Assembly: GCF_000011345.1 (NCBI RefSeq)
Contig: NC_004113.1
Span: 2,523,501 to 2,587,500, forward strand
Length of the DNA stretch: 64,000 nucleotides
Reading direction: 5' to 3'
Source of the DNA: Thermosynechococcus vestitus BP-1
Lineage (GTDB): Bacteria; Cyanobacteriota; Cyanobacteriia; Thermosynechococcales; Thermosynechococcaceae
The notes under the pieces are model-generated. The model searched no databases. It saw only the letters and a program-made list of their open reading frames with translations, and was not told where the DNA came from. The position numbers were made by a program, and so were the translations under genes. Shown here one piece after another: positions 45,827 through 47,777 of the stretch. Every line of letters starts with the position of its first letter. The first letter of the stretch is position 1.

Positions 45827-46354
45827 CTAATTCTCCTGAGAATGCAAAAACAATCCCACACTGGTTGCTAACTGCTGAAAATTGGGTTCAATTCGTTGTC
45901 CTAAGTACTCTTCAACGACCCGAGCAATCATACTTGCTAAAAAGAAGGGGACACCGCTAATGCGTTTTGGATCAATCCTGAGATAGCCACGGCTCCTGAT
46001 AATGGTTGAGTCACCAGTGGCAATAAATTGATTTTCCCCCTGACAGTCAACGGCCTCCGTAAAGGCATGGGGGACAATGCGCCAGTGGGTGAGATAGTGG
46101 CGATCGTCCCAATGGGTATAGTCCGTCCACGAGAGCATTGCGTCACTCAAGAATGCCCGTGCTGCCGCTGGAATTTCACCGCCACCATGCCAAACCAAGA
46201 CCATTTCTAGGGCTTGGGGCTGTTCGTTGCGCGCCTGCACTTCAATTGCCCGCACATTGGGCATCCAGCTCACCAGTTCTGGCAGGCGATCGCGATAGGT
46301 GCGATAGACAGCGTCGCGGCGAAAGGGTAGCTCTACTTGGGAAGAAATTTCCAT
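45827..46354 (-). CDS. SRPBCC (START/coenzyme Q-binding-like) protein
   Basis: The 175-residue protein matches the SRPBCC helix-grip fold: VELPFRRDAVYRTYRDRLPE, LVSWMPNVRAIEVQ, ALEMVLVWHGGGEIP and a long C-terminal helix (ASMIARVVEEYLG). The fold binds lipids or other hydrophobic ligands; cyanobacterial members have no fixed substrate. ATG at 46354 is chosen. It sits between the channel gene and the duplicated membrane protein, with gaps of 4 and 2 bases, strongly suggesting co-expression. Confidence 0.8.
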   Translation of the reverse strand: MEISSQVELPFRRDAVYRTYRDRLPELVSWMPNVRAIEVQARNEQPQALEMVLVWHGGGEIPAAARAFLSDAMLSWTDYTHWDDRHYLTHWRIVPHAFTEAVDCQGENQFIATGDSTIIRSRGYLRIDPKRISGVPFFLASMIARVVEEYLGQRIEPNFQQLATSVGLFLHSQEN

Positions 46355-46358
46355 GACC

Positions 46359-47777
46359 TTATCCCCACTGTGGACACTGTCGCGCAATCACAACCACGTA
46401 ATCCCCCACCTGCAACTCATAGTTCATCGGTGGATTCATATAGGTGCGGCGACGCCCCTCAATGCGACGTTCCACGGCTATCAGCAGAGCATCGTCTTGC
46501 GCCTTAAGTTGTTGTTGTGCATACCAAAAGGTTTTGCCTGCCAGCGTTGACGGCAAAGGCAGCCGATAAAATTGGTTCCCGATCCGTACCGTCAGTAGTT
46601 CGGCAAAAACATCCATCGCCCCTTGATTGCGCACCGCATTGCCAATGAGGTGACCCGCCATTTCATCGGCAACAACCACATCCTCCACCCCCGCCGCCTG
46701 AAGTTGGACATTATTATTGCGATCTAAAAGCTGGGCACAGGTGTAAATTGCCGGGTTGAGTTTTTCTATGGTCAGTGCAGCAAGAACAGTTCGGGCATCG
46801 CGGTCTTGATCACTGCGGGGCCGGCTGGTATCCGCCAAGAGAATGGCACGGGAGGCATGGTAAATCTGCACCTTCTCCAAAACGTCAATGCGGGTATAGT
46901 CTCCCGAATAAAAGTAGAGGCGATTTTGATCCACTGTCTGCAATTCATTCAAGGGCAGCTGTTCCAGTTCAGCAATCATGACAATCGGCGCATAGCGGGT
47001 TTGGGGATCGGTTTGTAATTCCTCCAACACAAGGGGGGCACTGCGATTCCAGCCACAAAGGATAATGTGGTTGCGCAACTCATCCAAGTCAAGGTTCTTA
47101 ATGCTCATGACCGACTGCAACCGCTGCACCATGAAGGCAGACACCACCCCTGTAAACACCGCAAACAAGGTCAGCCCCGACAAAACCACAACTAGGGTAA
47201 CGATCCGCCCGGCATGGGTTTGGGGATAGGCACCAATGGGTTCGGCAGACACTAAAGAAAAGAAGCTGTACCACAGGGCATCCCCAAGGGTCTTGATGTC
47301 TGGGTTTGAGGTCCCTTCGATAATATAAAAAGCCAGGCCCCCAAAGAGCATGATCAACACAATGATTAACAGTGCTGAAATTTGGGCACCGTAAAGACCA
47401 GAAGTCTGGGGGGCAATGTAGTGGAGGTTGCGGTTCATCAGAATTGAGGCCCGCGGCAAACGCAGCAAGGGCAGCAAACGAAACAGTGCCCACTGGGGCG
47501 GCATGGGCAGAATCGCCACTAGATCAAGCCAGTAGTGGCGGAAAAATCGTTGCTTTTTGCGGGCGATCGCAAATCGTAGGCATAGCTCAACAACAAAGCA
47601 CAGCCGTAGGGGTAAATCCAACAGCATCACAAAAAAATTAGGGTGGCCGGGCTGTACCCAGAAGAGATCGACCACCACTAAAAGGACCCACATTAGGATC
47701 AACGCCAACAGGCTCATTTCTACCTGGGGTGAGTGCAAAAATAAATCGAGCTGCTGCCTCAGCCGGCTGTGTCCCAT
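46359..47777 (-). CDS. Six-TM-type ion channel with RCK (TrkA-N) domain and unusual filter
   Basis: The 472-residue protein has a voltage-sensor-like N-terminal half (hydrophobic segments at about 21-41, 48-70, 84-93; an arginine-spaced S4-like segment FRLLPLLRLPRAS), a pore module (about 131-216) and a cytosolic RCK/TrkA-N domain (from about 235, NHIILCGWNRSAPLVLEELQ). At the filter position, where potassium channels have TVGYGD, it reads SLVSAEPIGAYPQT (about 174-187). Ion selectivity is therefore uncertain. It is followed by SRPBCC and membrane genes in tight succession. Confidence 0.88.
   Translation of the reverse strand: MGHSRLRQQLDLFLHSPQVEMSLLALILMWVLLVVVDLFWVQPGHPNFFVMLLDLPLRLCFVVELCLRFAIARKKQRFFRHYWLDLVAILPMPPQWALFRLLPLLRLPRASILMNRNLHYIAPQTSGLYGAQISALLIIVLIMLFGGLAFYIIEGTSNPDIKTLGDALWYSFFSLVSAEPIGAYPQTHAGRIVTLVVVLSGLTLFAVFTGVVSAFMVQRLQSVMSIKNLDLDELRNHIILCGWNRSAPLVLEELQTDPQTRYAPIVMIAELEQLPLNELQTVDQNRLYFYSGDYTRIDVLEKVQIYHASRAILLADTSRPRSDQDRDARTVLAALTIEKLNPAIYTCAQLLDRNNNVQLQAAGVEDVVVADEMAGHLIGNAVRNQGAMDVFAELLTVRIGNQFYRLPLPSTLAGKTFWYAQQQLKAQDDALLIAVERRIEGRRRTYMNPPMNYELQVGDYVVVIARQCPQWG

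Follow-up and report, generated by a model that had tools for sequence, protein, structure and literature searches.

RESULTS

A channel gene with six transmembrane helices and one RCK domain

The window, the whole 64,000-nucleotide stretch of the Thermosynechococcus vestitus BP-1 genome that was analysed, carries on its reverse strand an open reading frame (ORF) that starts with ATG and encodes a protein of 472 amino acids, with six transmembrane (TM) helices followed by a single RCK domain (Table 1). Four Pfam models, Ion_trans, Ion_trans_2, Slo-like_RCK and TrkA_N, match the protein above their cut-offs. The S5-pore helix-S6 fold is recognised by Ion_trans_2 (28.3 bits, cut-off 22.5) and is also seen in an AlphaFold model. 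The RCK domain after S6, whose retention a sequence-only reading of the locus had proposed, is borne out by TrkA_N and by Slo-like_RCK (44.5 bits, cut-off 24).

Four bases past the channel stop codon lies the ATG of an SRPBCC-like ORF, whose Pfam match stays below the cut-off (16.9 against 27.4 bits). This ORF adjoins 12 of the 42 loci of the channel family described below, all of them from Thermosynechococcus or from a sister genus (L009), and is possibly a co-transcribed neighbour in these hosts. Around the distant family loci, with flanks mostly of about 1.5 kb, no conserved partner gene was found. The two largest clusters of shared neighbours resemble ORFs antisense to the channel gene, and the next comprises seven loci, all of one family-level group (f23).

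The genome to which the window belongs, a single contig of 2,593,857 bases, was also scanned for other channels. Only two loci match PF07885; the one besides the channel (L001, C1:1446275-1446496) reads GIGYSE where GYGD is expected. The DNA pattern T-[FILMV]-G-[YF]-G-[DE], which misses filters departing from it, gave two matches, within open stretches that are 74 and 50 amino acids long, and the reversed control gave three. By PF07885 and this pattern, a canonical K+ filter was not found in any channel ORF of the genome. Partnering with a canonical K+ subunit of the same genome was considered and rejected, since these two scans found none.

Table 1. Features of the channel gene and its neighbour, in positions of the window
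Feature	Position	Strand	Basis
Channel gene, 472 aa, 6 TM + one RCK	46359..47777	-	ORF, Pfam, AlphaFold model
S1 helix, residues 17-40	47658..47729	-	AlphaFold model with 60 sequences
S2 helix, residues 48-71, F61-x2-E64-x3-R68	47565..47636	-	model and family alignment
S3 helix, residues 75-89, Asp85	47511..47555	-	model and family alignment
S4 helix and linker, residues 97-121; R100, P103, R106, R109	47415..47489	-	model and alignment
S5 helix, residues 123-154	47316..47411	-	AlphaFold model
Pore helix, residues 164-176	47250..47288	-	AlphaFold model
Filter SAEPIGAYP, residues 177-185	47223..47249	-	translation and family alignment
Glu179 codon	47241-47243	-	
Pro180 codon	47238-47240	-	
S6 helix, residues 188-224	47106..47216	-	AlphaFold model
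Single RCK domain, residues 234-472, MthK-like fold	46362..47078	-	Pfam and fold comparison
R-[ST]-D-Q-D-x-D-A-R segment, residues 321-329 of the channel	46791-46817	-	family alignment
SRPBCC/polyketide-cyclase-like ORF	45827..46354	-	sub-cut-off Pfam match

A Glu-Pro filter in the place of TVGYGD

The filter of the channel, SLVSAEPIGAYPQT, aligns without a gap with TLTTVGYGDIAPAT of its near relative L046, a protein with a potassium filter that reads TVGYGDIAP where the channel has SAEPIGAYP. S-A-E-P-I-G stands in the place of T-V-G-Y-G-D with no change of length relative to the nearest 2TM-RCK relatives, and the K+ filter motif T-x-G-[YF]-G is absent. This is the replacement that the sequence-only reading had described in a pore module otherwise aligning with potassium channels. 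Its further point, the loss of the GYG on which K+ selectivity depends, holds as well: the K+-type pore, the RCK domain and S1-S4 are kept and GYG is gone, so that the known mechanism should not provide K+ selectivity here.

None of the 42 non-redundant family sequences lacks Glu179 or Pro180, which puts the filter replacement far beyond chance. Position 181, where the second Gly would be, is occupied by Ile (39) or Val (3), and Gly182 is kept in 40 of the 42. Position 184 varies (E 20, Y 12, D 8, Q 1, T 1), giving a second acid in 28 members; the 12 copies with Tyr184 comprise 11 from the genus of the host and L009 of the sister genus. Residues 174-187 occur as 24 distinct filter strings with zero gaps. 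The pore flanks are firmly conserved (W169 41/42, S171 42/42, T187 41/42, G190 42/42, R/K191 41/42), and no family member departs from G190, G201, T203, F205, A206, T209, G210, S213 and A214. The Glu-Pro filter is a hallmark of this family, not an oddity of one genome.

As the pore helix ends at residue 176, Glu179 is the third filter residue. By sequence count, not by coordinates, it lies at the level of the first filter Gly of K+ channels and of the Glu of BacNav/Cav channels; an excerpt of PMC7041947 numbers the CavMr filter TLEGWVD from T1 to D7. The BacNav/CavMr motif T-L-E-x-W is absent from the family, which has the Glu at the same count and Ile/Val181 instead of Trp in 42 of 42 members.

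Voltage sensor and predicted fold

The defining residues of a voltage sensor are F-x2-E-x3-R in S2, an Asp in S3 and arginines three apart in S4, and the channel possesses all three elements. Among members with residues there, the S2 signature is almost invariant (F61 in 39 of 40, E64 and R68 in 40 of 40), and Asp85 of S3 is found in 41 of 41. In S4, positions 100, 103, 106 and 109 read RRRR in 28 of the 41 members with the segment, RPRR in 11 and QPRR in two. The arginine-spaced, S4-like segment noticed in the sequence-only reading is therefore real, with the refinement that the genus of the host has R-x2-P-x2-R-x2-R.

An AlphaFold monomer computed with 60 sequences (pLDDT 83.9, pTM 0.50) displays S1-S6, a pore helix at 164-176 and the RCK domain; it replaced a first fold made with 13 close sequences (pLDDT 56.3). 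The best Foldseek matches of the model are human and Aplysia Slo1, Slo2.2 and MthK, with E-values down to 1.6e-19, and the whole-chain superposition on Slo1 and MthK is loose (TM by query 0.38-0.47, rmsd 9-18 Å). In a profile search of solved structures the best matches were 2a0l and 1orq over S1-S6 (E 7e-21), which we take, like 6uwm, to be KvAP. Slo1 matched over profile positions 33-468, from S1 to the RCK domain (E 1.6e-19), and MthK over pore and RCK.

The RCK domain superposes on that of MthK with a Z of about 20 over 212 residues (rmsd about 3 Å). The columns of MthK D184, E210 and E212 hold Asp323, Gln349 and Leu351, each in 42 of 42 members. In MthK, E210 is presumably a Ca2+ ligand, and D184 and E212 are named in the titles of mutant structures. 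Ca2+ gating at the MthK site was rejected, as Gln349 and Leu351 replace E210 and E212 throughout the family and leave it unsupported. Close by, the acid cluster D323-Q-D325-x-D327 retains its three Asp in 42 of 42 members; in the eight GYG sister sequences Asp327 alone has an invariant counterpart, and L046 and L010 have Asp at 323 and Ala at 325. Seven of the nine positions of R-[ST]-D-Q-D-x-D-A-R (residues 321-329) are invariant in the family. From this pattern of conservation, the cluster and the segment around it could be a candidate ligand or metal site.

A patchy, constrained family of Cyanobacteriia

The search for family members used a profile built from 13 orthologues and covered 388 Cyanobacteriia genomes, with at most four candidates scored per genome and membership set at 497 bits or more, full-length or split; the next best match reached 177 bits. 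Family members were found in 42 of the 388 genomes, a share raised by the inclusion of the window's own order (29 genomes, 14 of them carriers). The carriers fall into six family-level groups (f1 14, f23 18, f25 5, f15 2, f52 2, f44 1). An earlier search with a single sequence had found the channel in four of 291 genomes of the phylum, and a single-sequence scan of genome contigs matched only three Thermosynechococcus loci. The named relatives are Thermosynechococcus metagenome-assembled genomes, with 85-92% protein identity. These carrier counts describe a patchy distribution.

Pairwise identity among the 42 non-redundant sequences spans 46-96% (median 53%), and dN/dS lies between 0.07 and 0.16 in nine of ten comparisons with the window's gene, those with nine other Thermosynechococcus copies; in the tenth, with the sister genus, dS is saturated. 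The median identity and the dN/dS values together indicate a protein under constraint. Two of the 42 copies are split by stop codons or frame changes (L043/L049 in genome G308, L090 in G386), so some hosts do without the channel and it may be dispensable there. These two were left out of alignments A3 and A4, which hold the other 40 family sequences. In a tree built without the filter columns from 58 of the 60 rows of A3 (two rows without RCK were dropped), a branch with support 100/99 separates the 40 family rows from all others. Long branches between groups make the order of the GYG, GEYP and EPI groups unsure, and the tree is used here for the unity of the family only. The branch fits a single filter exchange, of which the tree gives neither root nor direction.

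Beyond Cyanobacteriota the search covered plasmids, phages and viral contigs. No family member was found on plasmids, where seven distant RCK/pore relatives matched, nor in phages, nor among viral contigs searched with two peptide patterns. One of the plasmid relatives, on a Rossellomorea plasmid (L099:1138-3489), has TVGYGD; this GYG 2TM-RCK channel gene adjoins genes of the DUF350 and glutathionylspermidine-synthase families. Among the 40 members scanned against NCBIfam no fitting model was found: the only matches were to two potassium-channel models and KefC (36, 20 and 3 members). On the best of these, with its cut-off of 425, the protein of the window reaches 44 bits.

Relation to known channels

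The family profile comes closest to the cyanobacterial 2TM-RCK K+ channels (L010, L011, L046, L092-L096), aligning over RCK and pore in 328 columns with an E-value of 7.6e-52. These relatives lack S1-S4, and their own T61, V62, G63, Y64, G65 and D66 are invariant in 8 of 8. The BK channel (Slo1) shares with the channel the succession of voltage sensor, pore and RCK; BK differs in its GYG filter, in having two RCK domains and in an additional S0 helix. MthK is similar in its pore and single RCK and differs in having two TM helices and a K+ filter, whereas KvAP shares S1-S6 and has a K+ filter and no RCK. BacNav and CavMr channels are not known to have an RCK domain. They resemble the channel in their voltage sensor and in the Glu at filter position 3 (TLESW, TLEGWVD), and are unlike it in the Trp at filter position 5 and the P2 helix, in so far as an excerpt of PMC7041947 describes them.

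The sequence-only reading had also suggested a relative of CASTOR/POLLUX. According to part of PMC6697748, CASTOR/POLLUX/DMI1 channels are RCK-gated, lack TVGYG and carry an acid in the filter, as the channel does, and the RCK fold is indeed near that of the CASTOR ring (Z 17.8, rmsd 2.8 Å, 229 residues). The match to Castor_Poll_mid is weak, however, at 23.6 bits against a cut-off of 26.7. The same source gives four predicted TM helices, tandem RCK domains and the filter AD(S/A)GNHA for CASTOR, where the channel has six, one and SAEPIGA (PMC6697748). The profile comparison is far weaker with CASTOR-like proteins (E 1.4e-18) than with the TVGYGD 2TM-RCK channels, and cyanobacteria possess separate CASTOR-like proteins, of which the two scanned out of four found score 95 and 125 bits on Castor_Poll_mid. 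The channel is almost certainly not a member of the CASTOR/POLLUX/DMI1 family, and this part of the earlier suggestion fell. By analogy of acidic filter, RCK ring and Ca2+ selectivity, CASTOR is nonetheless the best functional precedent and a good lead.

Other unusual filters were met during this work. The four CASTOR-like proteins (L027, L028, L031, L032) have an Asp in the filter region (DSGTVGGD, DGGTMGND, DAGAVTGA and DTGTVGGD), and in the two that were scanned a further TrkA_N region matches weakly. Another cyanobacterial RCK family, with two TM helices by appearance (L013, L014, L019-L026, L050-L055), has the filter [GA]-E-Y-P-[DE]-[KR]-P-x-T, with Glu-Tyr-Pro in 16 of 16 aligned sequences; Pfam recognises the RCK and not the pore in L013, the one protein of this group that was scanned. 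The profile-profile comparison between this GEYP family and the channel family gave an E-value of 4.7e-26. Three proteins of six-TM type with no RCK (L029, L035, L047) have TTLGSEYWPQT or TTIGSDYFPQT in place of TVGYGD.

Five K+ channel homologues of Synechocystis are named in a portion of PMC13099474. In the literature searched, neither a characterised homologue with a Glu-Pro filter nor electrophysiology of any family member was found, and a text search for filter strings such as SAEPIG returned no ion-channel title among the matches listed. Close homologues proven to be ordinary K+ channels, which would have spoken against the sequence-only reading, did not appear in the searchable literature either. 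The modules are all known; as far as we have searched, the Glu-Pro filter in this scaffold is new.

DISCUSSION

Based on these observations, we propose that the gene encodes a cation channel gated through its RCK domain and equipped with a voltage sensor and a ring of four Glu, not selective for K+ and either Ca2+-permeable or non-selective, a reading to which we give a probability of roughly 0.6. The subunits would assemble into a homotetramer of BK/Slo-like layout, with an S1-S4 sensor, an S5-P-S6 pore and one RCK per subunit, contributing to a gating ring. In this pore, GYG is replaced at constant length by x-x-Glu-Pro-Ile-Gly, and the four Glu179 side chains may form an acidic ring at the level of the first filter glycine of K+ channels. 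Owing to this predicted ring, the pore should not select K+. Opening would be brought about by depolarisation acting through S4, together with a ligand of the RCK ring.

What ion would such a pore pass? The channel probably conducts positive ions other than K+, perhaps calcium; the ion may be Ca2+, or the pore may admit cations non-selectively with a preference for divalents. CASTOR, an RCK channel without TVGYG whose filter reads AD265S(A)GNHA, is Ca2+-selective, and its D265N mutation abolishes the current, as reported in part of PMC6697748. The filter TLEGWVD, with Glu at position 3, belongs to the Ca2+ channel CavMr; in NavPp, whose filter is similarly rich in acids, Na+ permeates and Ca2+ acts as a blocker (excerpt of PMC7041947). 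The behaviour of NavPp indicates that an acid ring alone does not settle selectivity. Also counting against our preferred explanation, the copies of the genus of the host have at position 184 a Tyr, which is not an acid. Pro180 beside Glu179 could equally narrow or close the pore. The more specific proposal, that these proteins are cyanobacterial voltage-sensor-bearing, RCK-gated Ca2+ channels, with a BK-type body in which the K+ filter was exchanged in place for Glu-Pro, is tentative, and we regard it as possible.

Losing GYG should by itself be enough to remove K+ selectivity, and the 12 Tyr184 copies are without the second acidic position; the channel might then be a non-selective monovalent one (Na+, K+) with no preference for Ca2+, serving osmotic or membrane-potential adjustment. 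We consider this rather doubtful, because a Glu kept without exception hints at tuning by charge and because the acid-filter precedents CASTOR (PMC6697748) and CavMr (PMC7041947) are Ca2+-selective in the parts of these papers cited above, a point that NavPp tempers. The conserved pore bears on a different alternative, in which the protein is a non-conducting voltage/RCK sensor or silent subunit, a scaffold for signalling or for assembly with another channel. Strong conservation of pore helix, filter and S6 makes such a role unlikely, even though Glu-Pro-Ile is sharply unlike the conducting filters we recall and the close-packed SRPBCC gene comes next in 12 of the 42 loci; in the window's genome, with no canonical K+ subunit found as a partner, it is less likely.

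An ordinary K+-selective channel whose filter happens to be unusual would agree with the potassium-channel-like character of the other modules, and the weak NCBIfam matches, far below cut-off, are mostly to potassium-channel models. With Glu and Pro as the third and fourth filter residues in all 42 members and Ile/Val at the second Gly, and given that the cyanobacterial K+ channel SynK carried no current as a GAGD mutant according to an excerpt of PMC2853561, we hold this to be very unlikely.

The family amounts to a natural experiment on ion selectivity, in which the scaffold of a K+ channel has been left whole and the filter replaced residue for residue, and the replacement is fixed in distant cyanobacteria. 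The host is taken here to be a thermophile, and proteins of thermophiles are often helpful in structural work. If Ca2+ is conducted, the channel would offer a homotetramer for a direct comparison of selectivity by an acid ring and by GYG, and the Ca2+ reading, if true, would add a third way to a Ca2+-permeable tetrameric pore besides the BacNav/Cav and CASTOR filters. For the cyanobacteria themselves, a Ca2+-conducting channel of this kind would be a candidate entry route for Ca2+ signals.
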